Below, in pieces: positions 1,207 to 63,878 of a DNA stretch of 64,000 nt (within the stretch, counting starts at the first letter, position 1; each line of letters opens with the position of its first letter). The stretch lies in IMG/VR virus record IMGVR_UViG_3300050821_010673, positions 1 through 64,000 of that record; one strand, 5' to 3'. The DNA comes from a virus. The notes under the pieces are model-generated. The model ran no database searches and was not told the DNA's origin. It was given only the letters and a program-made list of their open reading frames with translations. The translations under genes and the position numbers were made by a program.

Positions 1207-3276
1207 CTACTTGCCCTTGCTCTTCTCGACGGCCCAGTGTTTCTGGATCGTCATGATCAGGCGACGGAGGTAGCTGGCGACGGACTCCTCCTCACCGGCC
1301 TTCTTGATCTCGGCAATCTGCGTCTGGTCGCCGCCGCACTCCGTCAGGAGCGCCTCCAGCTGCGGACCGTTGTCGATCGTCTCCAGCTTGTCCAGGAGCT
1401 GCTCGTCGAGGAACTCGATCGCATCGGAGGCGACGTAGCTCTCGATCTCCTGATTGTTCGCGGCTTTCTGCGGGAGCTGCTGGCGGATCTCCGAGCGGAT
1501 CCCGGACAGGATGAAATCGACGGCGTACTTCCGGTCGTACTTCATCTCGCCGGGCCGGATCGGGAACTTGATCTTGAGCGTCGCGCCGCCGTCGCCCAGC
1601 ATCGGGAACACTCCGTGCGTCACGTCTCCTCCTTTGCCGTCGGTCTCTTCCTGGGGTGCGGTCTGGGAAACCTTTTTCGTCGAGAGGTCGGTCGGCTCGA
1701 TCAGAACCTTCTTGACGACGCCCCCGGCGCCGCGGTGCTCAGAGACGACTTTCGTCCCGGCGTGACGCGGCGTGGCGGCGGGCTTCGGGGCGCCGGGCTT
1801 CTGGACCATCGCGATCAGCTTCCCGCCCGGACCGGCCTGGAGCGTGATCCCCTGCTCGTGCAGGCTCTCGGCGATCCTCGAGACGGCGAACTTCGCCGCT
1901 TCCTCGTGGATCTGCTTCTCCCGTTCGCTCGTGACCGTCTGACCGCCGGAGGTCTCCTGCTTCATCTTGTTCTCGACGAAGCTCTTCAGGATCGGGGCGA
2001 ACTCCTTGACGGCCAGCTTCGCGACGTCCTCGGTGTCCTCGACGCCGCCCTCACCGCCACCCTCGCCACCGCCGTTCAGGCGCTCCCAGGCGACGTCGAT
2101 CAGACGGCTCTCGATCTCCGACAGACGGCCTCCCTTGTTCTCACCGGCACCCGTGATCGCCTTCAGCTTCTCGGCGCGATTCAGGAACGTGTCGAGCTCG
2201 TCCCCGGCGGAACGGACCGGCGCGGACGGCTTCGTCGCCAGAGCGTTCATGAGGGTCGACATCTGCGTCGAGTCCGTCTCCATCTTCTTCATGATGAACT
2301 TCATCAGTTCGCTTTCGCCGGACTTCTCGACGGGCTTTACGGTCGTGAGGGCCGTGACGGCCTGGGTCAGCGTCGAGAGCGTCCCGCGGATCTGGTCGAA
2401 CTGGTCGTTGACCTTCTTCTCGGCGAGCTGACGGTCCTTCTCGGCGAGCTGCTCCCGGAGCTTCCTGACCTCGTCGGACTCGCCGACGGGGGCGGCCGGA
2501 GCCTGTCGACCGGAGCCCTCCAAGGTCTGCACCTGCTGCTCGAGCTCCTCGATCTCCTTCTTGACGCGGGCGCGCTCGAGACGGCGCTCGAGATCCTGCT
2601 TGAGCTTGATGAGCGGGTCCGTCTCGCGCAGCGTCGGGTCGCCGCCGGTCGGGACGCGGGACGACTCCTGGGGCTCCTCGAAGTCCGTCACGCCCTCGAT
2701 GTACGGATCGACGTTCTGGTCTGGGTGCTCGAAGGTGAAGTGCCCGAGGATCGTGTTCTCGCCGTTCGAGGTGTCCCGGTGGATCGTCGCCTTGTAGCGC
2801 TGGCCACCGTGCTCCTCGAAAACCTGCTCGGCGATGGCGTCGACCGTCGTCGGACAGGTGTACTTCCCGGGCAACCGGACGTTCGTGACGACCTTCTCGC
2901 CTGTCTGTGGATCCCGGATCGACCGGGGCGTCTGGCGGGTCACGATGACCATGTTCTTCCCGTCTGACAGGAGTTCGACGACGGGATCGTGGTCGGGCGG
3001 CTCGACGTCATTCGCCGGAGTCGCGACCGGAGGGGGCTTCGGCGTCTCGCCGCCAAAACGCTTCGCGGCGGCTCGGGCCGAGCGGTCCGAGCCCTTGATC
3101 GTCAGCTGGACCTGAGCAGGCTCTTCGACCGGGGCCTCCGGCGCGGCCCCCTCGATCGTCTCGGGCTCCGTGGCGAGAACGGGACCGGCTGTCTCTCGGT
3201 CCTGGCTCTCGGCCAGATCGTTGTAGTTATCGGACGGGTCGGACGCCGAGCGGGTCTTTGGCGACTTTTTTGACAT
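1207..3276 (-). CDS. large coiled-coil protein of unknown function (689 aa)
   Basis: The frame is open further upstream, but the ATG at 3276 has GGAGG seven bases before it and begins MSKKSPKTRS, so this start is chosen. The N-terminus (about 1-110) is acidic and disordered; residues about 115-215 look like a compact alpha/beta domain; about 225-330 is a long charged coiled coil; a Gly-rich linker (GGGEGGGEGG) lies near 430; the last 180 residues are helical, ending in a basic tail. No ATPase or nuclease motif is visible. It may be a scaffold or a virion/DNA-organising factor; this is inference only. Confidence 0.8.
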   Translation of the reverse strand: MSKKSPKTRSASDPSDNYNDLAESQDRETAGPVLATEPETIEGAAPEAPVEEPAQVQLTIKGSDRSARAAAKRFGGETPKPPPVATPANDVEPPDHDPVVELLSDGKNMVIVTRQTPRSIRDPQTGEKVVTNVRLPGKYTCPTTVDAIAEQVFEEHGGQRYKATIHRDTSNGENTILGHFTFEHPDQNVDPYIEGVTDFEEPQESSRVPTGGDPTLRETDPLIKLKQDLERRLERARVKKEIEELEQQVQTLEGSGRQAPAAPVGESDEVRKLREQLAEKDRQLAEKKVNDQFDQIRGTLSTLTQAVTALTTVKPVEKSGESELMKFIMKKMETDSTQMSTLMNALATKPSAPVRSAGDELDTFLNRAEKLKAITGAGENKGGRLSEIESRLIDVAWERLNGGGEGGGEGGVEDTEDVAKLAVKEFAPILKSFVENKMKQETSGGQTVTSEREKQIHEEAAKFAVSRIAESLHEQGITLQAGPGGKLIAMVQKPGAPKPAATPRHAGTKVVSEHRGAGGVVKKVLIEPTDLSTKKVSQTAPQEETDGKGGDVTHGVFPMLGDGGATLKIKFPIRPGEMKYDRKYAVDFILSGIRSEIRQQLPQKAANNQEIESYVASDAIEFLDEQLLDKLETIDNGPQLEALLTECGGDQTQIAEIKKAGEEESVASYLRRLIMTIQKHWAVEKSKGK

Positions 3277-3469
3277 TCCAGGCCTCCAGAATCGACGGTA
3301 GGGAAATGAACCCCTTGAATTGATGCAGGACGCAGTAGATATGGATCGATCCGTTCGCACAAAGCGTCGCGATGCAGTGGTGCATCTCGACCTGTTTCGA
3401 TCCGAACATCGCCGTGCTGAGAGGGCAAAGCGCCTTGACCTGCGGTAGAAGTATCCTCTCTCGACCCAT
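3227..3469 (-). CDS. small Cys/His-rich protein (80 aa), probably leaderless
   Basis: The frame has protein-like composition (HHCIATLCANG, YCVLHQFKGF). A minus-strand promoter (TTGACT at 3507-3502, 17-base spacer, TATATA at 3484-3479) would start transcription within a few bases of the ATG at 3469. It overlaps the start of the 689-residue gene by 50 bases. Function unknown; the three Cys and three His could bind a metal. Confidence 0.5.
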   Translation of the reverse strand: MGRERILLPQVKALCPLSTAMFGSKQVEMHHCIATLCANGSIHIYCVLHQFKGFISLPSILEAWNVKKVAKDPLGVRPVR

Positions 3470-3478
3470 CGACCCCTA

Positions 3479-3507
3479 TATATAGATAGCAGGCCTTTCT
3501 GAGTCAA
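3479..3507 (-). promoter_or_regulatory. minus-strand promoter of the left gene block
   Basis: TTGACT and TATATA are separated by 17 bases, close to the housekeeping-sigma consensus. It faces away from the plus-strand promoter at 3531-3558, so the two form a divergent control region of about 80 bases. Confidence 0.6.
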
Positions 3508-3530
3508 CAGAATCTTTTCACGAATTTTGC

Positions 3531-3558
3531 TTGACAGGGGCCCTGTGGGAGCTATACT
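3531..3558 (+). promoter_or_regulatory. strong promoter of the replication operon
   Basis: A perfect TTGACA is followed after 16 bases by TATACT. The expected start site (about 3565) coincides with the first base of a structured leader that precedes the helicase gene. Confidence 0.75.
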
Positions 3559-3564
3559 TCTGAC

Positions 3565-3769
3565 GTGGGCACCCGATACGGCGTAGAGTCTCTGAACCTT
3601 CGCGGCCGGGGTAAAAGTCTGTCCGTGGTTGTCTCCGGCACGGGTGCCCACACATCCAGCGCCGGTAGCGCGGATGGATCCAGGGCCGCGAGGGTTCAGC
3701 GGCTCTAGGCTGGCACGTTCGCTCGGGGCGGAGGAACCCCGGACGGACGGGAAGAAGAAGGAGGATCGA
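3565..3769 (+). ncRNA. structured 5' leader RNA with interleaved helices
   Basis: The 205-base leader contains an 11-bp perfect inverted repeat (GTGGGCACCCG 3565-3575 with 3641-3651) and a 16-bp one with a single G-U (3592-3607 with 3684-3699). Their arms alternate, so they can form a pseudoknot or two mutually exclusive folds. A third hairpin (CGGGG 3724-3728 with CCCCG 3737-3741) lies just before the AAGGAGG of the helicase gene. No good small ORF is obvious. A riboswitch, protein-binding leader or stable ncRNA are all possible. Confidence 0.5.
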
Positions 3770-5554
3770 GTGGTCACCAAGAGCGTCGCGCCCCCGACGA
3801 ATCGGGAAAATTTGCACCCCTGGACCTTCACCGCCGAACAGCTGCTCGCGCACTTCACGCCCGGCAAGACCCCTCGCCCCCAGCAGACGCACTTCCTGGA
3901 GCGGGCCGCCGCCGCCTTCGCCGCCGGGAAGCGGGTCGTCGTCGGTGAGCTGCCGACCGGCGCCGGGAAGACCGACGCCTGCAAGACCGTCGCGAACGCG
4001 CTCCGGTCGATCGGCAAGTCGACCTTCATGCTGACTTCTCAGAGGATTCTCCAAGATCAGTACGCCGACGATTATCCGGCGCCGGACATAGAGACCTTGA
4101 AGGGCCGGGCGAACTACGCCTGCACGCACCCCAGCGCCGAGGAGGGCCAGGACGCCGCCGACGGGGTCTGCCGCCGCCGGGCGAAGGGGATCCTGGGCGA
4201 GTGCCTGACCGACGACGCCCGGCCGATCGCCGAGGCCGCTCAGCTGACGCCGATGCAGGCCGCAGTCAGCCTGGAGCTCCCGTCCGGCTGCCACCTGTGT
4301 CCGTACTGGGCTCAGCTGCAGCGCTGCCACGACGCCGCGATCTCGCTCTTCAACTTCTCCAGCTTCCTGTTCCAGCAGCGGATCTCGCGCTTCCCGAAGC
4401 GCGCCCTCATGATCGTCGACGAGGCGCACAACTGCGAGTCCCAGCTGATGAGCTTCGTCACGCTGGAGCTCTCGGAGTGGGCGCTCTCGCTCGTGGGAGT
4501 CCGGATCGACCGGGAGATCCGGACGAAGGCGGAGTTCCTGGACTGGCTGGCGGAGACGGACCTCGTCGCGCTGATCCTTCGGCGCCTGAAGGCCGCCGAG
4601 AACGACGCCGAGGACTCGATGGACTCCGACGACGTGGACCTGTCGGCGGCCGAGGTCGATGCGCTGAAGGAACTGGACGGCAAGCTCGCGAACTTCATGG
4701 CCTTCCTGGAGAAGACCGAGTGGGTCCTGGAGGTCGTCCGGTACAACGACAAGCGGACCGGCGACGAGCGCCGGAAGATCGTCGCCCGGCCCCTCTACGC
4801 CAAGGACTTCGCGCAGGACCTCCTGTTCCGGCACGCCGAGCGCCTCGTCTTCATGTCGGCGACGATCCTGGACGTCCAGGTCTTGGCGAAGAACCTCGGT
4901 CTCTCGATGGACGAGATCGAGCTGGTCCGGACCCCCTGCGACTTTCCGATCGAGAACCGGCCGATCTACAAGGACTACTGCGGGAACTTCGGCTTCAAGT
5001 ACTTCACGGCCGAGCAGAACCCGAAGGACCCGACCAAGCCGAAGTTCGTCCGGAAAGTCACCGAGATCCTGGAGCGTCACCGCGGCCAGCGTGGCATCGT
5101 CCACTGCCACTCGTTCTCGCTCTCGAAGATCCTGTTCGACGAGGTCGACACGGATCGTTTCCTGTTCCAGGATCACTTCGACTCGAAGGAGGCCATGCTG
5201 GCCGAGCACGCCCGCCGGACCGACTCCGTGATCGTCGCTCCCGCGATGCACGAGGGTCTCGATCTGAAGGGCGACCTGTCTCGTTTTCAGGTGATCGCGA
5301 AGATGCCCTGGCCGAACATGCAGGACCGGATCATCAAGCGGCGCATGGACATGGACTCCCAGTGGTATGCGTGGCTGTGCGCCCTCAAGATCGTCCAGAG
5401 CTATGGCCGGTCGGTCCGCTCGCGCGAGGACTGGGCCGTCACGTACATCCTGGATGCGGGCTTCGAGTCCTTCCTCTGGAAGAACGCGAAGATGCTGCCA
5501 GACTGGTTCCACGAGGCGCTCCGGAAGGGCGTCCCGAAGGAGGTGCGCCGGTGA
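3770..5554 (+). CDS. DinG/XPD-type FeS superfamily 2 DNA helicase (594 aa)
   Basis: This is a 5'-3' DNA helicase for replication or repair. Walker A (GELPTGAGKT, residues 59-68) is followed by four or five Cys (118, 134, 174/177, 186) spaced as in the 4Fe-4S domain of Rad3/XPD/DinG proteins, a DEAH box (217-220), LVFMSATI as motif III and GRSVRSREDW as a late motif. The open frame extends 47 codons upstream, but GTG 3770 has AAGGAGG five bases before it and is the better start. It opens the replication operon and overlaps the next gene by four bases. Confidence 0.9.
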   Translation: MVTKSVAPPTNRENLHPWTFTAEQLLAHFTPGKTPRPQQTHFLERAAAAFAAGKRVVVGELPTGAGKTDACKTVANALRSIGKSTFMLTSQRILQDQYADDYPAPDIETLKGRANYACTHPSAEEGQDAADGVCRRRAKGILGECLTDDARPIAEAAQLTPMQAAVSLELPSGCHLCPYWAQLQRCHDAAISLFNFSSFLFQQRISRFPKRALMIVDEAHNCESQLMSFVTLELSEWALSLVGVRIDREIRTKAEFLDWLAETDLVALILRRLKAAENDAEDSMDSDDVDLSAAEVDALKELDGKLANFMAFLEKTEWVLEVVRYNDKRTGDERRKIVARPLYAKDFAQDLLFRHAERLVFMSATILDVQVLAKNLGLSMDEIELVRTPCDFPIENRPIYKDYCGNFGFKYFTAEQNPKDPTKPKFVRKVTEILERHRGQRGIVHCHSFSLSKILFDEVDTDRFLFQDHFDSKEAMLAEHARRTDSVIVAPAMHEGLDLKGDLSRFQVIAKMPWPNMQDRIIKRRMDMDSQWYAWLCALKIVQSYGRSVRSREDWAVTYILDAGFESFLWKNAKMLPDWFHEALRKGVPKEVRR

Positions 5555-15813: not shown

Positions 15814-15819
15814 CATAGT

Positions 15820-15948
15820 ATGAAGACAGTTCAGCTGCCAATATGGAAGTGCCGGAGGCCGAAATGCGGCCATCAGTGGATTGGAAGGAAGCCCGGGCGT
15901 CCGGTCGAGTGCCCGAAGTGCAAGCGTCGTGACTGGGACAAAAAGTAG
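15820..15948 (+). CDS. rubredoxin-like zinc ribbon (42 aa)
   Basis: A tiny protein with CRRPKCGHQW and CPKCKRRDW, the two knuckles of a zinc ribbon, otherwise basic. The ATG coincides with the predicted transcription start, so the mRNA is probably leaderless. First gene of a new transcript reading into the secreted-protein and glycosyltransferase genes. Confidence 0.75.
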   Translation: MKTVQLPIWKCRRPKCGHQWIGRKPGRPVECPKCKRRDWDKK

Positions 15949-15958
15949 GAGGTTTCCG

Positions 15959-19336: not shown

Positions 19337-19344
19337 GTGAACGA

Positions 19345-19719
19345 ATGATGAACTACGTCTGGATCCCTGCACTCGCGATTGTCGTCGTCATCACGGTGAT
19401 GGTCATCTTGAACTTGGTCCGGGCAAATCCGTGTGCCTTCGGCCTCCACAAGAAGCGCTACGTCGCGATCGTCGATCTCGAGCACTGTGTCCATAGAACG
19501 AGCTGGGGGATCTACTGCAGAAAACAGTCATCGGAGTGCCCCTACGCACACCGGTACCATGCCCAGGCCGCCCGGTGGGTGTGTAGCGGGAACGAGTGTG
19601 CCACCACGGGGTCGGAATGCGTCGACAAGCCGGGGCTCTGGCTAATCGAACACGGCGCCCTGGTCCCCGACGAGAAGCGTCTGATCGCGTGGCAGGACAA
19701 ACTGAATTTACATTACTGA
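19345..19719 (+). CDS. membrane-anchored Cys-rich protein (124 aa)
   Basis: One N-terminal membrane helix (WIPALAIVVVITVMVILNLV) followed by a Cys/His-rich domain (CAFGLHKKRY, CVHRTSWGIYC, CPYAHRYH, CSGNEC). Two adjacent ATGs at 19345 and 19348 serve as possible starts. Function unknown; perhaps a zinc-binding envelope protein. Confidence 0.65.
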   Translation: MMNYVWIPALAIVVVITVMVILNLVRANPCAFGLHKKRYVAIVDLEHCVHRTSWGIYCRKQSSECPYAHRYHAQAARWVCSGNECATTGSECVDKPGLWLIEHGALVPDEKRLIAWQDKLNLHY

Positions 19720-19741
19720 TCGGAAAGAAGAGAGGGCAACT

Positions 19742-20398
19742 ATGGATCCGCTCGCGCTGACCCCGGAGTCCGTCGCCGATGAACTAGCCGAGAGTCGTGC
19801 CACGCTCAGGCGCTTCGAGGAACGCATCATTGAACTCGCCAAGGACAGTGCCAGTCTCAAGGCCCTCGTCTCCGAGAAGAACACCCAGATCGTCCGTCTC
19901 GAGGCCGAGAATGTCCGCCTGAAGATGACGCGGACCGACGCCGAGCTCGGGAAGCAGGTCGACGGCCTCCGAATCGAGGTCGGCAAGAAGGACCGCGAGC
20001 TGGTCGACCTTCGTCGGGCCGTCGAGAAGTACCAGGGGAACGAGAAGATACTCCTGGGTCGCGCGCTGCTGGCCGAGCAGAAGACCCTGGCGTTCCAGAA
20101 CACGCTCATCACGGCCCAGGTCGCCCGGGACGCCGCCCAGGCCCGCGAGCAGGAGGCGAAGGACTCCGCCGACGAGCGCGTCGAGGAGCAGAACCAGCTG
20201 CGCCTGGAGGCCGTCCGCGGCATGGTCTCCGCCGTCGACCGGTCCGGGAAGCTCGACCAGAAGGTCCTGGACCTTCTGAAGGTCGTCCAGGCCGCTGCGA
20301 AGGTCGTCCCGCTCCTGCCGCCCGGACTCGTCAAGTCCAGCAAGGACGTCCAGGTCTTTGTCTCGAGCCTGAAGAAACTCGATCCGAAGGCGACGTGA
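19742..20398 (+). CDS. coiled-coil protein (218 aa)
   Basis: Residues about 10-175 form an almost uninterrupted charged coiled coil (ERIIELAKDSASLKALV, EAENVRLKM, KKDRELVDLRRAVEKY). The tail is hydrophobic-helical (VVPLLPPGLV). No catalytic motif. The stop overlaps the next gene's GTG. Confidence 0.7.
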   Translation: MDPLALTPESVADELAESRATLRRFEERIIELAKDSASLKALVSEKNTQIVRLEAENVRLKMTRTDAELGKQVDGLRIEVGKKDRELVDLRRAVEKYQGNEKILLGRALLAEQKTLAFQNTLITAQVARDAAQAREQEAKDSADERVEEQNQLRLEAVRGMVSAVDRSGKLDQKVLDLLKVVQAAAKVVPLLPPGLVKSSKDVQVFVSSLKKLDPKAT

Positions 20399-20640
20399 AG
20401 AAGTTCGAGTTCCTCCGGCGCTGGGCGAAGAAGGCGACCGCCGGTGGCTCCGTCGAGGCCTTCGAGCGCGACACCGAGACACTGATGCGGACGACGATCC
20501 GAATGACAGTCTCGGCAATTACGAACGGAATGTTGGAGGCTGCTAAGGATCTCAGTGGGAACGAGCGGAAGATGATCGACGGAATTGCCCGTCGGATCCC
20601 GGAGTCCGTCGAGAACGCACTCAAGCAGCTGTACGAGTAG
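20395..20640 (+). CDS. hypothetical helical protein (81 aa)
   Basis: GTG start overlapping the coiled-coil gene's stop. Basic N-terminus (KKFEFLRRWAKKA) and amphipathic helices; probably a partner of the coiled-coil protein. Unknown function. Confidence 0.65.
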   Translation: MKKFEFLRRWAKKATAGGSVEAFERDTETLMRTTIRMTVSAITNGMLEAAKDLSGNERKMIDGIARRIPESVENALKQLYE

Positions 20641-20658
20641 AAGAAGAAGGAGAGGTTA

Positions 20659-21435
20659 ATGCATAGGGTAAGTCCGAAGGTTTGGCTTATCGGCGAGACG
20701 AAACTCGACTACGAGACAATCGAGACGTATCTGGCGTCAGTCGGTGCAGAAGGATGGGATTCCGACGGCTGGAGCGACTCAGACGTTCTGTCCGAGCTCA
20801 TGGGTCGGCTTTGCTATCGTTCCTGGAAGCCCGGCCTGAACGCCAATGTCACGAAGGTCCGCGAGGGGAATTCTCCGTACCTGAAAAACATCATCGCTTC
20901 CGGACACGGCTCAGTTCTCGAGCACGGATCGTCGAACTGGCTCATCCAGGACGTCTCGCGCGTCTTTACGCACGAGCTCGTCCGTCATCGCGCCGGGACA
21001 GCCTTCAGTCAGGAGTCGATGCGCTACGTCCGGCTGGACGATCTCGGCCTCTGGATGCCTCCGGAGGCCGAGGAGATTCCAGGTCTCGTCGAGATGTGCG
21101 AGGCGAAGGTTCGGTCCGACGAGGCGTTCCTGAAGCAGCTGTCCGTGACGCTGGACCTTGACGGACCCGGCCGGAGCTTCGAATACAAGAAGAAGTGGAC
21201 GTCCTTCATGCGACGCTTCGCTCCGGACGGAATGGCGACTGCGATCGGCTTCACGATCAATCACCGTGCGCTCCGGCATGTCCTGGAACTTCGGACCTCG
21301 AAGGGTGCCGAGGTCGAGATCAGAGAGGTATTCGACAATATCGCATTCATCGCAACATGTCAGTGGCCCGCACTATTTCAGGACTTTAGTCGCAACGACG
21401 ATGGGGAGTGGATTTCCGGAGCGAAGAAGATATGA
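20659..21435 (+). CDS. thyX: flavin-dependent thymidylate synthase ThyX (258 aa)
   Basis: Makes dTMP from dUMP using methylene-tetrahydrofolate, FAD and NADPH. The ThyX signature RHRAGTAFSQESMR spans residues 109-122, HGSVLEHG (83-90) precedes it and the C-terminal HRALRHVLELRTS matches the family. Length is typical. GGAGAGG upstream of the ATG. It supplies thymidine for viral DNA synthesis. Confidence 0.92.
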   Translation: MHRVSPKVWLIGETKLDYETIETYLASVGAEGWDSDGWSDSDVLSELMGRLCYRSWKPGLNANVTKVREGNSPYLKNIIASGHGSVLEHGSSNWLIQDVSRVFTHELVRHRAGTAFSQESMRYVRLDDLGLWMPPEAEEIPGLVEMCEAKVRSDEAFLKQLSVTLDLDGPGRSFEYKKKWTSFMRRFAPDGMATAIGFTINHRALRHVLELRTSKGAEVEIREVFDNIAFIATCQWPALFQDFSRNDDGEWISGAKKI

Positions 21436-21668
21436 GCACCGAGAAGATCAACCATCCCGCCCATTACGGAGGTGACACGACGTACGAAGCGATCAAGGTG
21501 ATCGAGGCTTGGGAGCTCGGATTCTGCCTCGGAAATACCGTGAAGTACATATCGCGCGCTGGGAAGAAGGATCCGGCGGCGACCATCGACGATCTGAAGA
21601 AGGCTCGCTGGTATCTCGACCGTCAGATCCAAAACCTTGAGAAGGGAAATACAAATGCCAAAACCTGA
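21432..21668 (+). CDS. DUF3310 protein (78 aa)
   Basis: NHPAHYGG, YEAIKVIEAW, LGNTVKYISRAGKK and DLKKARWYLDRQIQ are the diagnostic DUF3310 segments, a phage family sometimes described as nucleotide-kinase-like. ATGA overlap with thyX supports a nucleotide-metabolism unit. Confidence 0.85.
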   Translation: MSTEKINHPAHYGGDTTYEAIKVIEAWELGFCLGNTVKYISRAGKKDPAATIDDLKKARWYLDRQIQNLEKGNTNAKT

Positions 21669-21849
21669 CAAGATGGTCGCGGAGATCGGAGCGTTCACGA
21701 TCTTTCGTAAGTCCGACTCGCAGGAGTACGAGATCGTCGGTCCGGCAGTTCAGAACTCTCCTCTTGCCTATACGATGGTTCGGACGACACCGGATCGTCT
21801 AGCCAAGATCCTTAGCATTGTCCGTCTTGACGCTCGGAACTCGAAGTGA
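21655..21849 (+). CDS. hypothetical protein (64 aa)
   Basis: ATG 21655 overlaps the DUF3310 stop. The short beta-type sequence (FTIFRKSDSQEYEIVGPA) shows no motif. Ends directly before a GTGTACAC element and a junction hairpin. Confidence 0.6.
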   Translation: MPKPDKMVAEIGAFTIFRKSDSQEYEIVGPAVQNSPLAYTMVRTTPDRLAKILSIVRLDARNSK

Positions 21850-21850
21850 C

Positions 21851-21891
21851 CGTGTACACCGTGACTTGGCACAGAAGAATAGAAGAGTGCC
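21851..21891 (+). promoter_or_regulatory. GTGTACAC motif plus junction hairpin
   Basis: CGTGTACACCGTGACTT (21851-21867) is one of several copies of a palindromic element. It runs into TTGGCAC, the left arm of a GGCAC-N14-GTGCC hairpin (right arm 21887-21891) of the family repeated through 21-43 kb. Confidence 0.55.
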
Positions 21892-21933
21892 GTAGAAACT
21901 CGAATTGCAGAACTTAGCGTCGAGGGAAGACAA

Positions 21934-22422
21934 ATGAGTCTCGAAGAGCATGTCAAGGCCGTCCAGCGGTATATGGTGGCAGAAGAGAAAGTGCGACAGC
22001 TAGAACTTCAGATTAGTGAAGTCTGGGAGCTACTGGACTCCATGCCCAGCGGTCCCGGTGAGGGGGCGGTGTCTTGTGAGTCTGAAGTTCGGGACCAGAT
22101 TGCATGGTCAGACAAGTATCGAGCCCTGAAACTTAAGCACGGTATTACCGAACATCCAAGGTGTCATTGGGACGGAGGAACGGTCCCATGTGACTACCAG
22201 AAGCCATGCCCGGATCATAGCTGCGCCTGCTGTAGGGCGGTGGCGAAGCGCGGAGACAAATGCCTGAAGTGCGGTGGTTTCGCGGAAAAGCCAAAGAATG
22301 AGATGGGGCAGTACGAGGGCCTTACAAGCAAACTCGCCCCAGAGCATCCGTTCACGGCGACCGAGTTGAAGGCGCTTCAGGACTCGCCGCACAAGGTCGC
22401 CGAAAAGCGGAAGGAGGACTGA
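21934..22422 (+). CDS. helical protein with Cys cluster (162 aa)
   Basis: An N-terminal coiled coil (residues 1-40) precedes a Cys-rich stretch (CHWDGGTVPCDYQKPCPDH, then CACC and CLKCGG) that could bind two zinc ions; the C-terminus is charged. A ribosome binding site GAGGGAAG precedes ATG 21934. Unknown function. Confidence 0.65.
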   Translation: MSLEEHVKAVQRYMVAEEKVRQLELQISEVWELLDSMPSGPGEGAVSCESEVRDQIAWSDKYRALKLKHGITEHPRCHWDGGTVPCDYQKPCPDHSCACCRAVAKRGDKCLKCGGFAEKPKNEMGQYEGLTSKLAPEHPFTATELKALQDSPHKVAEKRKED

Positions 22423-22425
22423 CAA

Positions 22426-22512
22426 ATGCAATGGTGCCATAAGTGCAACGAGCCGCACGACTATGTTTACTACCACGTCGCGCTGATCCCTTGGGGCTTG
22501 GACGAAGACTAG
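22426..22512 (+). CDS. mini zinc-knuckle protein (28 aa)
   Basis: MQWCHKCNEPHDY followed by a YYHVALIPWG strand. Starts four bases after the previous stop with AAGGAGG upstream, so translation is likely in spite of its size. Unknown function. Confidence 0.5.
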   Translation: MQWCHKCNEPHDYVYYHVALIPWGLDED

Positions 22513-22525
22513 ACGGAAGAACGCT

Positions 22526-22687
22526 ATGGCGAAGACGGAAACCGAAAAGGAAGCTGAACGACTTCGTCAGCTTCAGGACCGGAAGCAGCGGGATCGGGTC
22601 TGCCACGAATCAGGCTGCGACCACCACGGCCACCAGAAGAGGGCCGGATGGTGGTACTGCATTCGGCATCTTGGCGGGATTTCCTGA
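22526..22687 (+). CDS. small Cys/His protein (53 aa)
   Basis: A charged helix (residues 3-25) followed by CHESGCDHHGH and WWYCIRH, a compact zinc-finger arrangement. No good ribosome binding site is visible. Unknown function. Confidence 0.5.
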   Translation: MAKTETEKEAERLRQLQDRKQRDRVCHESGCDHHGHQKRAGWWYCIRHLGGIS

Positions 22688-22701
22688 GTACCGAGGAACG
22701 T

Positions 22702-22881
22702 ATGGCGAGACTAAAACTCCGGTGCTATGTCTGCGGGAAGCTGCTCTCGAAGCTGGGAGACTTCGCGCTCGTCTCTCCGAGTCCAAGCGCGGTTGATCGG
22801 GCCTTTGTGGTGCATGGCGGGGATTGCTTGAAGCGGGTTCGAGAGGACCATCCCCACGTTGAAGTTCGACTGCACGGATGA
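22702..22881 (+). CDS. small zinc-ribbon protein (59 aa)
   Basis: CYVCGKLLS near residue 8 and HGGDCLKRV near residue 40 suggest a zinc knuckle. AGGAA precedes the ATG. Part of a row of six tiny Cys-bearing genes between 21.9 and 23.4 kb. Confidence 0.55.
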   Translation: MARLKLRCYVCGKLLSKLGDFALVSPSPSAVDRAFVVHGGDCLKRVREDHPHVEVRLHG

Positions 22882-22900
22882 GCTATAGAGGGATTGACAT

Positions 22901-23059
22901 ATGGAACCTGTGAGCCCGATTTGCACCTGCGGCCATCCGATGCACCAGCATTGCGGCGATGGGTGCTACGTCATCGTGAACAGGGAGAGCGGCCTAAAGG
23001 AAGTGTTCTGCGCCTGCAAAGTGTCGGGCGGCCAGTACGATCCGGATCGTGATTCATGA
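22901..23059 (+). CDS. small Cys/His protein (52 aa)
   Basis: CTCGHPMHQHCGDGC and FCACK supply six Cys and three His in 52 residues, typical of a small metal-binding fold. GAGGG lies upstream of the ATG. The stop overlaps the next start. Confidence 0.6.
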   Translation: MEPVSPICTCGHPMHQHCGDGCYVIVNRESGLKEVFCACKVSGGQYDPDRDS

Positions 23060-23232
23060 CATTGGACGTTCTCCCTTGCCGCCGTAAGCACCGATACCCG
23101 AGGACTTGGATGTACTCCATTGGAAGGTCGTTCCGTACTCGCTTCTGCAAACGCTGCCTTGAACAGGATTGGCAGGAACTTCGCGGCGGTCGTTATCTGA
23201 ATCCCATTACCCAAGAAGGACGTAAGCCGTGA
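23056..23232 (+). CDS. small basic Cys protein (58 aa)
   Basis: ATG overlaps the previous TGA (ATGA). Arg-rich with one CKRC pair and an isolated Cys. Unknown function; overlaps the next gene's GTG. Confidence 0.5.
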   Translation: MTLDVLPCRRKHRYPRTWMYSIGRSFRTRFCKRCLEQDWQELRGGRYLNPITQEGRKP

Positions 23233-23423
23233 CCTATAGGACAAAGCAGAAGTGGCGGCTCTGGTGCCTCCATCTCCCGGCCTTCATCGTGTGCTGTATT
23301 CCGGTTGGCCTGTGGTGGGCATGGGCGGCGTTCCTTGAACACTGGGACGAGGCTCTCCTATGGGCCGATGGCGTCGACGACTGGAACGCCAAGCATCCGG
23401 AGGATCAGTACCGTGGTTCGTAA
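23229..23423 (+). CDS. small membrane protein (64 aa)
   Basis: GTG start overlapping the previous stop. One strong membrane helix (LPAFIVCCIPVGLWWAWAAF) with a basic N-terminus and acidic C-terminus. Unknown function. Confidence 0.6.
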   Translation: MTYRTKQKWRLWCLHLPAFIVCCIPVGLWWAWAAFLEHWDEALLWADGVDDWNAKHPEDQYRGS

Positions 23424-23449
23424 TTCCAGCGATAGGAAGGCATAGAATC

Positions 23450-24373
23450 ATGGTAGAGTGCCAGCTCCGCCTCCACCCGACGGCCGGGCGGCACTACGTC
23501 CACGTCTTTCCGAGCGATCAGTTCCTCTGGGAGATCCGGGACTGCTACCTGTCGGCCGCGCGTCGGATCCCGTGGATGTCTGTCGACAACCTGCCGTACT
23601 GGAATGTCCACAGGCCGGAGTGGGACGAGCCGGAGCGGATCGTGATCTTCTGGGGCTGCATCCCGGAGTACATCCCGAGCCACCGGAAGGCCGCCGCGGT
23701 CCTTCGGTACACGGAGTCGGTCGGCATCCCGGAGGGGCTGAATTCCGTCCAGAACTCGATCGTCGAGAGATTCTCTTACTGTCCGGACCGGTTTGACCTG
23801 CTGCTCGGTGGAACATCGACGGTCGCAAACTTCTGGGCTGGGAAGTACCGGGAGACGGCCTTCGCGCCGATCGGCTACGAACCTGCGATCCTGGGGCGTC
23901 CGCATTGGCCGACCAAGACCACCGACATCGCCTTTCGTGGGAACGCCATAGGACGGAGGAACTGGATCCTTGGAAAGCTGAGAAAGTCGTTCCCGAAGCT
24001 TCTCTGGATCCACTCATTCGGTCTTGCGCGGAAAGTCGAGCTCGACCGATCCAAGATCGATCTGTATGTGGGTCATTCCGACGAGCCGAGCTTCCCCGGG
24101 ATGCGCCTCTGGCAGGGGATTGCCTCGTCGGCGGCGCTGGTCACGGAGCCTCGGGACGCATTTCCAGCAGTAGCTGGGCGCCACTACCTGGAGATCCCGT
24201 CGGCCGATCCGGACATGTTCGGCTACTTTGTCGAGAGCATCCGGGACATCCTTAAGGACGAGAAGACTCTTGAGCGGATCGCCAAGACCGCTCATATCGA
24301 GCTTTCGGCATATACGATCGACCGGTGCATGGAAGAGTTCGTTGTCCCGGCTACGAGGGGGTTGCACGGATGA
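23450..24373 (+). CDS. CgeB-like glycosyltransferase (307 aa)
   Basis: The frame is open further upstream but ATG 23450 has AGGAAGG and a sensible N-terminus. The C-terminal half (DLYVGHSDEPSFPGMRLWQGIASSAALVTEP, ...HYLEIPS) matches the CgeB/Glyco_trans_1_2 GT-B type. Overlaps the BKACE gene's start. It likely transfers a sugar in a glycan carrying the acyl groups made by its two downstream neighbours. Confidence 0.7.
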   Translation: MVECQLRLHPTAGRHYVHVFPSDQFLWEIRDCYLSAARRIPWMSVDNLPYWNVHRPEWDEPERIVIFWGCIPEYIPSHRKAAAVLRYTESVGIPEGLNSVQNSIVERFSYCPDRFDLLLGGTSTVANFWAGKYRETAFAPIGYEPAILGRPHWPTKTTDIAFRGNAIGRRNWILGKLRKSFPKLLWIHSFGLARKVELDRSKIDLYVGHSDEPSFPGMRLWQGIASSAALVTEPRDAFPAVAGRHYLEIPSADPDMFGYFVESIRDILKDEKTLERIAKTAHIELSAYTIDRCMEEFVVPATRGLHG

Positions 24374-25212
24374 TGCCAATGATCGTGAACCTGACGCCGA
24401 CCGGGATGGTCCCGACGAAGGCGATGACGCCGTACGTGCCGATCTCGGTAGGCGAGATCGTCGAGGAGGTCCTCTGGTGCCACGGCAGCTTTGGTATCAC
24501 GTCGGTCCATCTACACGCCCGTGACGAGAATGGCCAGCCGACGTACAAGAAGGAAGTCTACGGCGCCATCATCGAGGGGATCCGCCGGAAAGCTCCGGAG
24601 CTTGTCATCTGCGTCTCGCTCTCCGGCCGAAACGTCCAGGACCTCACGAAGCGTGCGGATCCTCTTAAGCTAGAAGGCGCGCTCCGGCCGGACATGGGAT
24701 CGCTGACGCTCTCGTCGCTGAACTTCTCGTCCCAGGCGTCTGTCAACGATCCGTCGGTCATCCAAGCACTGGCGAATCTGATGGAGAGTTACGGGGTCGT
24801 CCCGGAGCTCGAGATCTTCGACCTCGGGATGGTCAACTACGCGAGGTACCTCCTCGCGAAGGGGCACATCCGTGCTCCACTCTACGCGAACATCTTCCTC
24901 GGGAACATCGCCGGTGCGCAGTTCGATCTCCTGCACGCTGGACTGCTCGTCCGGGATCTCCCTAGGGAGACCATCTGGTCCTTCGGCGGAATCGGCGACG
25001 CGCAGTTCCAGGCGAACATGCTGGCGGCGGTCTCCGGCGGTGGAGTTCGAGTAGGCCTAGAAGACTCAATCTACCTGGACCACGAGCGCCAGACTCTGGC
25101 GACGAACATGCGGATGGTCGAGCGTGCCCACCACCTCGCGAAGATGGTCGGTCGCCGGGTCATGACCCCGAACGAGTTCCGGACCAAAATGCACATGGGA
25201 GGACAGCGATGA
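24370..25212 (+). CDS. beta-keto acid cleavage enzyme, DUF849/BKACE (280 aa)
   Basis: The TIM-barrel family condenses a beta-keto acid with acetyl-CoA to give acetoacetate and a new CoA ester, using a zinc ion. VHLHARD (His47, His49) is the zinc motif, GSLTLSSLNF, ELEIFDLGMV, WSFGGIG and VRVGLEDSIYLD are the later conserved segments. Length matches. Such a gene is very unusual in a virus-like element. It overlaps both neighbours by four bases. Confidence 0.85.
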   Translation: MMPMIVNLTPTGMVPTKAMTPYVPISVGEIVEEVLWCHGSFGITSVHLHARDENGQPTYKKEVYGAIIEGIRRKAPELVICVSLSGRNVQDLTKRADPLKLEGALRPDMGSLTLSSLNFSSQASVNDPSVIQALANLMESYGVVPELEIFDLGMVNYARYLLAKGHIRAPLYANIFLGNIAGAQFDLLHAGLLVRDLPRETIWSFGGIGDAQFQANMLAAVSGGGVRVGLEDSIYLDHERQTLATNMRMVERAHHLAKMVGRRVMTPNEFRTKMHMGGQR

Positions 25213-25892
25213 GCAGACCGTTCGTCATGTTCGGGTACTCGCACCTGTTCGGGGACATCGTCGACTGCATCGAGTCGGTCGGTGGACAGCTCGAGCTGGT
25301 CGTCCTGAACGTTCCGGAAGATCCGCGTCCTGGGCGCGCCACTCTCGCCGAGCGGGTCGGCCGACTGAACTCCGACGTCGCGATCATTCGGAACTTCAGC
25401 AACTTCGCGAATAGCAATCTCCGTGAAAAATTCGGGAATCGCTGCGTCCTGGGGTTCTCCCGGAAGCAGGCGGTCCCTCTACTTGAGACTCTCGAGCACA
25501 GTCTGGCGATCCTCGGGAATCCGATCGTTCACGCGACGGCGATCCAGCAGAAGGGCTCCAGGGTCGACTCCTGGTCGATCGTCAACGTCGGGGCGATCCT
25601 GGGGTCCTGGTCGTACGTCGGCCGACACGTCATCGTGAACCGCGGCGCCTCGATTGGGCACGACGCGGTGATCCGGGACCACTGCGTCATCTCGCCGGGG
25701 GCCGTCCTGTGCAGCCACGTCCGGCTCGACGACGACGTTCTGGTCGGGGCGAACGCGACGATCCTGCCGGACGTCCAGGTCGGCGCCGGAGCGACGATCG
25801 CCGCTGGCGCTGTCGTCCGGGAGGACGTCCCGGCGAACACGATGGTCGCCGGAGTCCCGGCCGTCGTCAAGAAGGGGCCGATAGAATTCTAG
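25209..25892 (+). CDS. NeuD/PglD-like hexapeptide acyltransferase (227 aa)
   Basis: An N-terminal Rossmann-like half (VMFGYSHLFGDIVDCIE) and a C-terminal left-handed beta helix of hexapeptide repeats (VNVGAILGSWSYV, GASIGHDAVI, GAVLCSHVRL, VGAGATIAAG) ending in DVPANTMVAGVPA. Such enzymes O- or N-acylate sugars. Last gene before a terminator. Confidence 0.85.
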   Translation: MSRPFVMFGYSHLFGDIVDCIESVGGQLELVVLNVPEDPRPGRATLAERVGRLNSDVAIIRNFSNFANSNLREKFGNRCVLGFSRKQAVPLLETLEHSLAILGNPIVHATAIQQKGSRVDSWSIVNVGAILGSWSYVGRHVIVNRGASIGHDAVIRDHCVISPGAVLCSHVRLDDDVLVGANATILPDVQVGAGATIAAGAVVREDVPANTMVAGVPAVVKKGPIEF

Positions 25893-46136: not shown

Positions 46137-46751
46137 ATGACGAAGCCAACTGCCAACCGTCTTTATCCTTGGCAAAGAGAGGGCTACCTTAAACCTAAGG
46201 CCCAGCCTCTTTTCGACACGATCATCCTCCCGGCAAAGCAACCGCTTGGTAGGTATTATGCGTTTCGGAATCAAATGAAATTCGACGACGGGGTCTACAA
46301 GACGCCTGCGGATACGAACATGAGCCTCTGCGGACAGCTTGGAACTCCTCTCGAGTACGACTTCCGCTGGATGGAACTGCACTTCGAGCGGTACGAGAGG
46401 TCTGCAGCGAAGTTTGCGATGAGGTTCATTCGAGTTAGTTTTATATTTGGACACCAGACCGTGTGGCAAAGGATGTGCGGAGCTGCATGGCGCCCACTGA
46501 TCGACTGTCCGAAGAATCCGATCACCAACGAATCAGCCCAGGTCCAAGCGAAAGCTGTCGCTGATGAATTCCAGAAGAGAGGCGAGTTCTGGCCTCACTA
46601 CTGGACTCCGGTTGGAGATGTGTACTCCCCCAGAAGGATCGACTCGGTCGAAGCGTTCCAGGTAGAGGTCGACTTCTCTGAGCCTGTTCTTCTGAATGAC
46701 CCAATCCATCTGAAGGTCGTAATGCAGGACGTGATGTACAGTCCCCACTAG
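46137..46751 (+). CDS. beta-rich protein, possibly structural (204 aa)
   Basis: Beta-rich (TPLEYDFRWMELHFERY, FIRVSFIFGHQTVW, FQVEVDFSEPVLL) with a last strand pair like those of the two capsid-like proteins at 62-63.9 kb. Its stop adjoins the next junction hairpin. A capsid or vertex function is speculative. Confidence 0.5.
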   Translation: MTKPTANRLYPWQREGYLKPKAQPLFDTIILPAKQPLGRYYAFRNQMKFDDGVYKTPADTNMSLCGQLGTPLEYDFRWMELHFERYERSAAKFAMRFIRVSFIFGHQTVWQRMCGAAWRPLIDCPKNPITNESAQVQAKAVADEFQKRGEFWPHYWTPVGDVYSPRRIDSVEAFQVEVDFSEPVLLNDPIHLKVVMQDVMYSPH

Positions 46752-50256: not shown

Positions 50257-50514
50257 TCAGCCGAACAGAGTCTTGAGCCAACCGATCGCCGAGAGCGTCG
50301 ATCCGACCGCCGCGAGCGCCGCACCGGACCAGCCGAGCGCGGACTCCGGCTGCGCCCGGGGCGTGACGAACCTCGACGGATTCGCACGGGCCGCCCGGAC
50401 GACCGCCGAGACGCCGATCGCGATGGCTTTGTCCTGGGGAACGCCGTCCACGCTGTAGAGGTGGTAGGCGTACTCCGTTGCCACGTCGATCGCCGTGTCG
50501 AGTCTCGCCATCAT
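50257..50514 (-). CDS. late membrane protein with GVPQDKA module (85 aa)
   Basis: YSVDGVPQDKAIAIGVSAVV matches the recurrent helical module; the C-terminus is one membrane helix (AALAAVGSTLSAIGWL). Probable virion membrane protein. Confidence 0.65.
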   Translation of the reverse strand: MMARLDTAIDVATEYAYHLYSVDGVPQDKAIAIGVSAVVRAARANPSRFVTPRAQPESALGWSGAALAAVGSTLSAIGWLKTLFG

Positions 50515-51839
50515 TTCACCAGCTTCAGTTCCGTCTTCGGCGTCTTCGGAACGAGGTTACAGACGACGTCGGCCCACTGAGAAGCCCTCGTCTTGCCCAT
50601 GCATCGGTTCTCGCAGACCCAGTGGAGCGCGGCTCGTCCGAGCACATCTCTCTCGGCGCGCGTCAGGTCGACCATGCGCCGGAGGGCGTCCGGCCAGCCG
50701 TCGTCCGGGACCAGCTCGATCGGGAATCCTGCCTGGACCATCGACGGGTACTCCGCGACCGGGGAACACAGAAGCGGGTAGCCCGCCGCGGCGTACTCGA
50801 GACCCTTCAAGCCGGACTTGCCGGTGTTGAACTCGTTGTCCTCGAGCGGGACGATCCCGAAGTCTGCGGCGATGTCAGCGAGCTCGTCGTGGTAGCTATC
50901 GAAGTCGACCGGCTTCTTGAGGTCGACCCACTCGTAGCAGTCCGCCAGGACCTCCGGCAGACGCTCGCCGAAGAGCGTGAAGCGGACCTTCCCTGCGCGT
51001 TCCCGCAGGAGCTCCCGGATCGCCGGGGCGACGATCGCGAGGTCCATCTTGTGGGTCGCCGATCCGGCCCAGAGGATTCGGACGAAGGCCGGGTTCGGCG
51101 GCTGCCGCTTCGGGAGGACGTTCGCCGTCAGCATGTTCGGCAGGACGCGGACGGGCTTTCCGGGATACCTCTCGGCGAAGTGCCGGGCGAGCGGCTCCGT
51201 CGTGACAGTCACGAGATCCGCAACACGGATCATGGCGTCGATCTCGGCCTGCTTCTCGGGAGTTCCGTAGACAGTCTTCGCTTGATTCCCGTCCGGGATC
51301 GCGTCGAGACGATCGTCGATGTCGTAGACGATCTTCACGCCCTGGTTCTGCGCCTGACGGGCGATCTCGGTCAGGATGTCCGCCGTGATCAGCTGGATCC
51401 AGAGGACGTTGTACCGGAGCGCCTTCGAGACATCCGGACGGGCCGTCCAGTGCGAGATCACCCGGCCGCCCTCATTGAGCAGGTCCGCGGGGATCATCGC
51501 ACGGTAGTAGCCGGAAGCCGTCTCGCCCGCCGGAACGAAGAGCACGTTTGGGATGTTGTCCTTCTGGAAGAGATGCTCGAGGAAGGCGTCCTCGGCCGCG
51601 TGCCGGAGGTCCAGGACGTCCTGGATGGTCCGGAGCATCCGACCACCCCAGCGGATTGCCAGGACCTTGTAGACCTTGTCGGCCTCCTGGTAGATGTCCG
51701 GATGGAAGACCGGCGCCCGATCCTCGAACTTGATCCTCACGCCGTCGTCGCTCGGGCAGGGGATCCCGCCAGCCCAGAGTCGTACGGCGACCTCCGGGAC
51801 CGTCCGGATCATGTCGATCAGCTGCGGCTTCGACGGCAT
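50511..51839 (-). CDS. glycosyltransferase in the late block (442 aa)
   Basis: GT-B fold: YDIDDRLDAIPD, LPNMLTANVLP, ILWAGSATHKMDLAIVAPAI and SGLKGLEYAAAGYPLL. AAGGAGAG precedes ATG 51839. A sugar-transferring enzyme between virion genes suggests virion or host-surface glycosylation late in infection. Confidence 0.75.
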   Translation of the reverse strand: MPSKPQLIDMIRTVPEVAVRLWAGGIPCPSDDGVRIKFEDRAPVFHPDIYQEADKVYKVLAIRWGGRMLRTIQDVLDLRHAAEDAFLEHLFQKDNIPNVLFVPAGETASGYYRAMIPADLLNEGGRVISHWTARPDVSKALRYNVLWIQLITADILTEIARQAQNQGVKIVYDIDDRLDAIPDGNQAKTVYGTPEKQAEIDAMIRVADLVTVTTEPLARHFAERYPGKPVRVLPNMLTANVLPKRQPPNPAFVRILWAGSATHKMDLAIVAPAIRELLRERAGKVRFTLFGERLPEVLADCYEWVDLKKPVDFDSYHDELADIAADFGIVPLEDNEFNTGKSGLKGLEYAAAGYPLLCSPVAEYPSMVQAGFPIELVPDDGWPDALRRMVDLTRAERDVLGRAALHWVCENRCMGKTRASQWADVVCNLVPKTPKTELKLVK

Positions 51840-51914
51840 ACCTCTCTCCTTCTTCTTCTCCCCGCTAGGCACTCTACAGGACTCCCTTATTCTACGTCCC
51901 GAAGAGCGCGTTGT

Positions 51915-61779: not shown

Positions 61780-62193
61780 TTACGCGATCTCCACGATCCA
61801 GGAGACGCCGTCGTTCGCATCGTCCGCGTCGATCCAGATCGCCGAGACCCCCGTCAGGGCGAGCTCGACGAAGGCCCCCGGCTCGAGAGGGGTCGCCTTT
61901 GCGTGGTTCTGGGCGTCGGCGGCGGACGGTCCGACGTAGATCGTACCATTGTTTGTGATCAGAGCCCGAACAAAGATCTGGAATCCGTTCGGGACGGCCT
62001 GGGCCTGGAGCTGTGCGGCGGTCCCCGGGACGGCGACGGTCTGCTGGTTGGCCGCAAAAGTCGGCTGGTTCGGCGGAGCTCCGCCGCCCCCGCCTCCGCC
62101 GGTCACCGGCAGCGGATTCAGGGGGCCGATCGGAATGCCGTCCTCGTCGTGCAGGACCGACGGCCAGAGGTTTGGATTAAGTGGCGCGGGCAT
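61780..62193 (-). CDS. hypothetical virion protein with poly-Gly linker (137 aa)
   Basis: Short N-terminal part, a Gly9 linker (VTGGGGGGG), then a beta domain (QIFVRALITNNGTIYVGP). ATG 62193 follows GGAGAG. Possibly a fibre collar. Confidence 0.6.
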   Translation of the reverse strand: MPAPLNPNLWPSVLHDEDGIPIGPLNPLPVTGGGGGGGAPPNQPTFAANQQTVAVPGTAAQLQAQAVPNGFQIFVRALITNNGTIYVGPSAADAQNHAKATPLEPGAFVELALTGVSAIWIDADDANDGVSWIVEIA

Positions 62194-62206
62194 CGTCTCT
62201 CCTTCT

Positions 62207-62932
62207 CTAGGCCTCGAAGTCCCCGGTCTCAAACTCCGAAGCTCCGCCCTTGGCGCTGGCCCAGTAGTAGTAGAATCCGAAGACGCCGCGGACCGTGATA
62301 TCGACGCCGGAGCGGTTCTCGATCAGACCCTGGAACTGACAGCGCCCCCGCAGGCCGAACTGGAGGCCTGCCTCGTAGAAGTTCAGGGGAGTCCCGACGC
62401 CCGGCCAGACCGTCGTCCGTCCGGCCTGGATCGCATGGGAGGTCCCGTAGGACGACGGGTTCTGGTCGTCCCAGACCGGGATGATGTTGCTCGACGGACG
62501 GGCGTCGTTCTTCTTGCCGAGCTGGAACCAGAACTCGAGCTGGGAGTTCAGGAGCGGCGCGATCGGCGCGACGTCGAGACCCAGGAACGACGAGACGGCG
62601 CGCTGACGGTCGGCAATCTCGCGGTCGAAGACGAGCCCGATCGAGCCAGCCGGAATCACGAGCGACGATCGGACCTTGATCAGCGGCTTCGAGAACCAGG
62701 GCGGCTGATTGAAGGCCGGGAACTTAACGAAGCAGACCCGAGGCTTCGCGCAGGGATCCGGCTGAGGCGGACAGGACGGGTCGAAGACGACGTCCTGCGG
62801 ACGAGGCTCGCCCTGACCGGCGTCGCGCCAGCCCTCGTTGTGGTACTCCTCGTGGTCCGGACCGCCCATGCCGCCTCCTCTGGGAGGTCTCGGCGGCCCT
62901 GGCGGGCGTCCGGGCGGTTTTCTAGCTGACAT
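62207..62932 (-). CDS. beta-sandwich capsid-like protein (241 aa)
   Basis: Pro/Gly-rich first 40 residues, then a beta sandwich with KVRSSLVIPAGSIGLVFDRE, LNSQLEFWFQLGKKNDA and a last pair CQFQGLIENRSGVDI / VFGFYYYWA, similar in layout to the repeats in its upstream neighbour. Single jelly-roll-like fold inferred from pattern only. ATG overlaps the neighbour by 11 bases. Confidence 0.55.
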   Translation of the reverse strand: MSARKPPGRPPGPPRPPRGGGMGGPDHEEYHNEGWRDAGQGEPRPQDVVFDPSCPPQPDPCAKPRVCFVKFPAFNQPPWFSKPLIKVRSSLVIPAGSIGLVFDREIADRQRAVSSFLGLDVAPIAPLLNSQLEFWFQLGKKNDARPSSNIIPVWDDQNPSSYGTSHAIQAGRTTVWPGVGTPLNFYEAGLQFGLRGRCQFQGLIENRSGVDITVRGVFGFYYYWASAKGGASEFETGDFEA

Positions 62933-63878
62933 ACGAGATCTTTCTCCCTGCGAAGACCGGCTTGATCGTGTTGTCCACCGCGGTGAGATTCGTGAGGTCC
63001 AGCTGGACTTTCGTCGAGCGCCGGATCAGCCAGGAGCTCGCCCAGCGGGCGGGCCACGAGCCGACCGAGCCGATGAAGCCCGCTCCGGCGCCGACGCCGC
63101 TCGAGACCATCTGACTGCCGGTTCCGAACAGCAGCGACCAGTGGATCCGGTCGCCGGTCAGGGCCCGGTCGTTCTGGCCGTCCCGGATCAGGCACCGGAA
63201 GTCGCCGGTCGCCTGCGCGGACAACTTGAAGGACTCGAAGTCCGAGTTGTCCGGGATCGTCATGAAGAAGAAGTTCTCCTGGTTCGCCGTCAGGATCGCG
63301 ACCTCGTCGGTCGTCTGGAAGTAGGCGTACGTCCGCTCGCGGCGGTCGACGTACTTCCAGACCTCGTCCTTGATCTCCCCGGCGGGCGCCTGATTCGGGT
63401 AGAACTTGATGCCGCCCAGGACGAACTCGACGAACCGGGCGTTGACGAGGTCGTTGTTGAAGAGCGTCAGGTTCAGCGACTGGACCGGCGGGATGAAGAT
63501 CGTCTCCGGCAGGACGTACGGCTGGCCGCCGTTCCCGGAGAGCGCGATCAGCGGGACGACGCGGTTCGAGAACTGGATCCGCTTCCCGGGATGCTCGAGC
63601 AGGAAGTCGATGTCGTAGGTCTGCAGGAGCGCGCCCGGCTGGGTCGGATCGTCGGCCGGGGCGTAGACGTTGCACTTGACGTAGAAGCACTCGATCGGGC
63701 CGTCGTACTGGGCCGTCAGCGGGAAGGGGCCCGCTCGGCCACCGGCCGGGATCTGGATGATCTGGTTCGGCTTCGAGACCGTCAGTTCGAACGGCTGAAC
63801 CCAGTCCTTGGCCGGGTTCATGTAGATCTTGCCGGTGTCCTTGTCGCGGAGGAATGTCGGTACCTGACCCCAGCTCAT
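62922..63878 (-). CDS. putative major capsid-like protein with duplicated beta domain (318 aa)
   Basis: First gene of the late block, with GGAAGGAG before ATG 63878. Two units share an order of strands: residues about 56-160 (FYVKCNVYAP ... QSLNLTLFNN ... FVLGGIKFY) and about 205-316 (FKLSAQATGD ... KVQLDLTNLT ... VFAGRKISY). A tandem beta-sandwich such as a double jelly roll is inferred, not shown; a baseplate or fibre base is the alternative. Confidence 0.55.
   Translation of the reverse strand: MSWGQVPTFLRDKDTGKIYMNPAKDWVQPFELTVSKPNQIIQIPAGGRAGPFPLTAQYDGPIECFYVKCNVYAPADDPTQPGALLQTYDIDFLLEHPGKRIQFSNRVVPLIALSGNGGQPYVLPETIFIPPVQSLNLTLFNNDLVNARFVEFVLGGIKFYPNQAPAGEIKDEVWKYVDRRERTYAYFQTTDEVAILTANQENFFFMTIPDNSDFESFKLSAQATGDFRCLIRDGQNDRALTGDRIHWSLLFGTGSQMVSSGVGAGAGFIGSVGSWPARWASSWLIRRSTKVQLDLTNLTAVDNTIKPVFAGRKISYVS

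Follow-up and report, generated by a model that had tools for sequence, protein, structure and literature searches.

Late genes at the end of the window

The window analysed here comprises the first 64,000 bases (1-64000) of an IMG/VR record of 67,324 bp, the other 3.3 kb of which was read separately (L002). Close to its far end lie two adjacent genes that encode proteins of 318 and 241 residues (Table 1), with the positions and lengths given in the preliminary description. Intact orthologous reading frames are present in seven further IMG/VR contigs, with identities of 68-84% for the 318-aa protein and 67-91% for the 241-aa protein, and hence both are real genes. The window contig and these seven contigs are referred to as the window clade. 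The order 217 aa, 318 aa, 241 aa is fixed and the trio is found in all eight clade contigs, in which the three genes are among the best conserved of the genome; in pattern scans it was seen nowhere outside the eight. The pair had been described as heading the late block, which proved incorrect. Several late genes are located upstream of it beyond the window end, among them those for the 217-aa protein, a 372-aa basic protein rich in Arg and Asn-Pro, and a long protein rich in NP, and in relatives this upstream part continues with the genes of one small hydrophobic, one transglutaminase-like, and one coiled-coil protein. Very basic proteins with Arg and Asn-Pro motifs recur, both here (L002:4819-5934) and in the distant viruses G008-G012 described below, and perhaps they have a role in DNA or membrane tethering.

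When the 318-, 217-, and 241-aa proteins were used directly as queries, nothing useful was returned from Pfam, PHROGs, PDB sequences, or INPHARED phages. The 241-aa protein had been said to end in the same kind of strand pair as its neighbor, and the likeness is apparent by eye but has no statistical support (E of at least 0.3). No link emerged to the other families or to the 210-aa protein that occupies its place in G008, and no relative of it was detectable outside the clade. The 150-aa protein that follows has the same position as gp48 of phage SSIP-1, with no significant sequence match to it.

The starts of the 67-73 kb clade contigs fall at differing points along one common map, and the gene at the window start continues an operon that leaves the far end of the window, the two ends being joined in relatives. 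Hence the genome, of ∼70 kb, has either a circular or a circularly permuted map. When GTDB genomes were scanned by pattern, no provirus was recovered. Several glycosyltransferases and methyltransferases are encoded at approximately 12594-25892 and at 50511-51872, a sugar-modifying content that is unusually rich for a phage, and a hexapeptide transferase and a protein resembling beta-keto acid cleavage enzymes are also encoded in the window. The gene for a DinG/XPD-like helicase (3629-5554, plus strand) overlaps long antisense reading frames and is missed by simple gene calling.

Table 1. Features of the window and of the adjoining end of the contig.
Feature	Position	Strand	Remarks
Coiled-coil late protein	1207..4029	-	Conserved in clade; true start lies downstream of the called one
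204-aa diverged second copy of the 217-aa family	46137..46751	+	Distant-only family profile, E 3.6e-10
150-aa late protein, after 241-aa gene	61780..62232	-	Conserved across clade
241-aa companion of 318-aa protein	62207..62932	-	Conserved adjoining gene; putative vertex or accessory capsid role
318-aa capsid-type protein	62922..63878	-	ORF; tandem duplication of one predicted beta-sandwich domain; SSIP-1 gp47 homologue
Unit 2 of 318-aa protein, ∼residues 181-316	62931..63338	-	Profile match 253-315
Unit 1 of 318-aa protein, ∼residues 40-165	63384..63761	-	Profile match 114-165
217-aa capsid candidate	contig 64014-64664	-	Just beyond window end (L002)
Basic NP-rich 372-aa protein	contig 64819-65934	-	Just beyond window end (L002)

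Distant relatives and the 217-residue family

Five more distant IMG/VR viruses, of 57 kb (G008), 55.5 kb (G009) and 36-42 kb (G010-G012), were located through a motif common to the 217-aa family and its diverged copy at 46137-46751. Like the clade, they have the 217-aa family, the 318-type domain, the transglutaminase-like protein and basic NP-rich proteins, and the order basic NP protein, 217-like, 318-like is retained in G008, G010, and G012, with intervening genes in G012. The block in G008 consists of coiled-coil, transglutaminase-like, hydrophobic, NP-rich, and basic genes, a tandem pair of 217-like genes, and the genes for a 318-like protein of 261 aa and a protein of 210 aa. Unlike the clade, G008-G011 have a 318-type protein with a single domain, while G012 differs in having several 318-type domain genes, one of them with two copies. 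The latter is a separate 271-aa protein (G012 21595-22410; L069:2595-3410), encoded beside two single-copy genes.

Homology within the 217-aa family extends over the full length (P=9.7e-7 over 169 columns), and its members are recovered by a distant-only profile with E values of 1e-9 to 1e-12. The family is present in every distant record, often with 2-3 copies per genome. The 204-aa copy, which aligns to the family with an hhalign P of 1e-4, stands alone, well away from the late block; comparable isolated copies are present in two other clade genomes (G001 and G003) and were not seen in G002 and G004. Searches for this paralogue in phages, plasmids, and viral contigs returned nothing.

Domain duplication in the 318-residue protein

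The preliminary description recognized two units in the 318-aa protein, and the decisive evidence on this point comes from a domain profile built from nine domains taken solely from the distant viruses G008-G012. This profile matches the 318-aa protein in all six of the clade contigs searched (full-protein E 2.4e-10 to 1.5e-5) and gives two matches per orthologue, located at residues 114-165 and 253-315 in the window copy (E 5.2e-6) and at residues 97-170 and 199-315 in the best copy. The controls are clean, in that the next match after the 318-aa proteins among 2558 ORFs is at E=0.41, and the best E values with shuffled and reversed sets are 0.64 and 0.8, respectively. Unit 1 is related to the single-domain 261- and 256-aa proteins of G008 and G009 (P=7.8e-5) and unit 2 to the single-domain 172-aa protein of G010 (P=3.8e-5, a value that is non-independent as the G010 protein was chosen as a match). 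By direct comparison, the two halves are not significantly similar (hhalign P=0.098), and Smith-Waterman alignment against shuffles had a mixed outcome. As judged from profiles, the 318-aa protein thus is two copies of one predicted beta-rich domain, a relationship seen through intermediates only. In a tree of the domain copies the divergence is too great to date the duplication.

Predicted structures

The 318-aa protein was modeled with AlphaFold2 on an eight-sequence alignment. The model is all-beta with two units, and the same order of strands is seen in both, as previously noted from the sequence, although its confidence is low (mean pLDDT 49.6, pTM 0.38). With Foldseek against the PDB, the chains of PRD1 P3, PM2 P2, and the PBCV-1 capsid come first, with STIV and FLiP later among other folds; the matches listed have E values of 9e-5 to 4e-3 and TM-scores of 0.24-0.38. 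In the BFVD library of viral structures, giant-virus proteins are mixed with uncharacterized tailed-phage proteins. Hence the comparison with AlphaFold and Foldseek proposed in the preliminary description puts double-jelly-roll capsids at the top of the PDB matches, but with a low-confidence model and a mixed set of viral matches, and given the pLDDT and the low TM-scores of these top matches (0.3-0.38) it suggests a double jelly roll for the 318-aa protein and no more. The model of the 217-aa family (pLDDT 55, pTM 0.53) matches mostly single-jelly-roll capsids, including the FLiP penton, with none significant. A jelly-roll fold for the 318-aa protein and for the 217-aa family is therefore suggestive only. 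A profile search with the 318-aa protein found no double-jelly-roll capsid by sequence.

A virion module in common with SSIP-1

SSIP-1 is a phage described in 2012. It remains an unclassified singleton (NCBI taxonomy), is described as membrane-containing and icosahedral (T=49) with a circular dsDNA genome of 44 kbp and two major capsid protein types, and has been loosely placed with the P23-77-type viruses (PMC6260650, PMC4958249, PMC6356626, PMC5332951). Its late genes (NC_017983.1) encode in order gp33 with a coiled coil, gp34 of the transglutaminase-like type, small proteins, the NP-type proteins gp41 and gp44 (gp44 being NP/hydrophobic), gp45/gp46 (210/211 aa), and gp47 (256 aa), such that gp44-gp47 correspond by position to the order basic NP protein, 217-like, 318-like. 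The coiled-coil gene of the window is in the same place as gp33 and the corresponding G008 ORF. Among 343 ORFs, an extended 318-domain profile has gp47 as its top match (E 2.7e-4, the next being at 2.2), and the distant-only profile also places gp47 first (E 0.014). The clade transglutaminase-like profile matches gp34 (E 4.3e-8; hhalign P 1.7e-8 over 144 columns), and gp46 is the top match of the 217-family profile, at a non-significant E of 0.46. The annotation of NC_017983.1 lists gp34, gp45, gp46, and gp47 as structural proteins and none as the major capsid protein.

The transglutaminase-like gene lies in the gap of the window contig and is present in relatives. Cys, His, and Asp residues of the encoded protein are conserved in G001-G005 and G008-G012 (for example, L004:2203-3843), and the window clade has a hydrophobic stretch followed by a C-terminus rich in Arg. 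The protein is perhaps a virion enzyme that acts on the cell wall or in cross-linking.

No clade ORF matches the structural ATPase gp40 of SSIP-1 at E≤1, and the clade AAA_24 profile misses gp40; we therefore describe the clade as sharing a module with SSIP-1 rather than as forming one family with it. This module, the domain duplication, and the homology to gp34 and gp47 are shown here, as is the failure to detect any head gene of tailed phages.

Tailed-phage head genes and the packaging motor

In the five near-complete genomes G000-G004, the large terminase (PF03237, phrog_2), portal (PF04860), and HK97 capsid (PF05065) gave no match above cut-off, nor did phrog_2, PF04860, and PF05065 in G008 and G009, while control genomes gave matches in the terminase, portal, HK97, and FtsK searches. 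That no such head genes are visible, as noted before for the window, thus extends to near-complete genomes. FtsK (PF01580), representing the packaging ATPase type of double-jelly-roll viruses (Bamfordvirae), was likewise not found above cut-off in G000-G004, G008, and G009. The proposal to look past 64 kb for the genes of one virion type or the other yielded a third jelly-roll-like capsid candidate and no tailed-phage head genes, and no FtsK/HerA packaging ATPase was found either.

The only conserved P-loop proteins seen in the clade are the DinG/XPD-like helicase, a Sak4-like AAA_24 ATPase, and a D5-type primase, with no other Walker A motor candidate. The AAA_24 ATPase, which is Sak4-like by PHROGs, was rejected as a packaging motor as it sits among replication genes and has no match to gp40. 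Either the motor is too diverged to detect, or its gene falls within the part that is missing from some contigs, or the packaging mechanism is different; FLiP and some Odin-group viruses also have no FtsK/HerA ATPase, and a different packaging has been proposed for them (PMC5894146). G011 encodes a P-loop protein (19494-21890, minus strand; L067:494-2890) that by eye looks like HerA/FtsK, with GQTQLSGKTT followed by VRVIVPEAQDF and no Pfam match, and it is possible that this is the packaging ATPase of the G011 branch.

The pair as probable shell proteins of a proposed tailless phage

We propose that the phage is large, uncultured, and tailless, a distant relative of SSIP-1, and that the pair most likely encodes proteins of its shell. 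Its dsDNA genome is circular or permuted and of ∼70 kb, and its virion is probably tailless and icosahedral with an internal membrane, built on the module in common with SSIP-1 and with the 217- and 318-aa proteins as its shell; we infer both the membrane and the precise part played by each of the shell proteins. The shell would be formed by the 217-aa protein, with one jelly-roll-type domain, and the 318-aa protein, with two tandem beta-sandwich domains, most likely acting together, the former as the small capsid protein and the latter as the large one with two domains, in the manner of the two-protein P23-77-type shells. The 241-aa protein would have an accessory role or be located at the vertices. 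Inside the shell would be a membrane that carries the small hydrophobic proteins, and the Arg/Asn-Pro-rich basic proteins would condense or tether the DNA and, with the hydrophobic proteins, link shell, membrane, and DNA, while the transglutaminase-like protein would be carried in the virion. The preliminary reading of a capsid of the membrane-containing type was thus largely right in kind, as low-confidence models point to jelly-roll capsids and the virion module, with its kinship to gp34 and gp47, is of the tailless membrane type; the double jelly roll that it also named is only suggested.

A possible, if unlikely, alternative is that the 217-aa protein and its diverged copies make the shell on their own, the 318-aa protein being a vertex spike, turret, or penton-associated protein. 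The presence of the 217-aa family in every distant record, often in multiple copies, would fit such an arrangement, as would a 318-type domain that comes in one or two copies and in several separate genes in G012, yet within the clade the 318-aa protein is conserved and linked as strictly as the 217-aa protein, its Foldseek matches are shell proteins, and two major capsid protein types have been reported for SSIP-1. That the 318-aa protein is a true double-jelly-roll capsid protein appears doubtful. Most of its PDB matches with E<1e-3 are to PRD1 P3, PM2 P2, or the PBCV-1 capsid protein, with STIV and FLiP next, its length is near those of the STIV and FLiP capsid chains (323 and 310), and it has two tandem units. 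Against this are the poor model scores, the mixed viral-library matches, and the failure of the sequence profile search to find such a capsid; moreover, prokaryotic viruses of that type have genomes of <20 kbp (PMC8812541), and SSIP-1, the relative by sequence, is grouped with two-protein, single-barrel viruses. It is very improbable that this is a tailed phage (Caudoviricetes) and that the proteins are beta sandwiches of a tail, baseplate, or head decoration. Such folds are common in tailed phages and several BFVD matches are to their uncharacterized proteins, but the head genes are not above cut-off in five near-complete genomes, the control genomes being positive, and the virion module is shared with the tailless SSIP-1.

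The clade and G008-G012 provide the orphan SSIP-1 with relatives that have genomes of 36-73 kb. Among the prokaryotic viruses listed in 2018 as having its capsid architecture, SSIP-1 is the largest (PMC6260650), and the upper end of this range exceeds it. In addition, a 70-kb phage in which neither a terminase nor an FtsK/HerA motor is apparent poses a question as to its mode of DNA packaging. Whether fusion of single jelly rolls gave rise to double-jelly-roll shells is still debated (PMC8812541), and a tandem duplication beside single-domain homologues bears directly on this. As a speculative and rather improbable extension, a single-domain capsid protein may have been duplicated in tandem within one tailless lineage to give a working double-jelly-roll-like shell protein, with both versions still coexisting in relatives. 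If true, the double arrangement would have arisen independently of PRD1-type viruses, in ∼70 kb phages.

Comparison with known viruses

The double-jelly-roll viruses PRD1, PM2, FLiP, and STIV provide the best structural matches of the 318-aa protein, on a low-confidence model, and differ from the clade in having no sequence match, genomes of <20 kbp, and another gene module. The P23-77-type viruses (Helvetiavirae) have a membrane-containing virion with a small one-barrel and a large two-barrel capsid protein (PMC4958249), to which the single-domain 217-aa and two-domain 318-aa candidates would correspond; the clade proteins have no sequence match to the P23-77-type capsid proteins in the PDB, and the clade differs in its larger genome and in that an FtsK/HerA ATPase was not found. 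SSIP-1, at 44 kb versus ∼70 kb for the clade, has two tandem ∼210-aa genes where the clade late block has one 217-aa gene, and the 241-aa protein of the clade is unmatched in it, while the two are alike in having circular dsDNA and an integrase gene.
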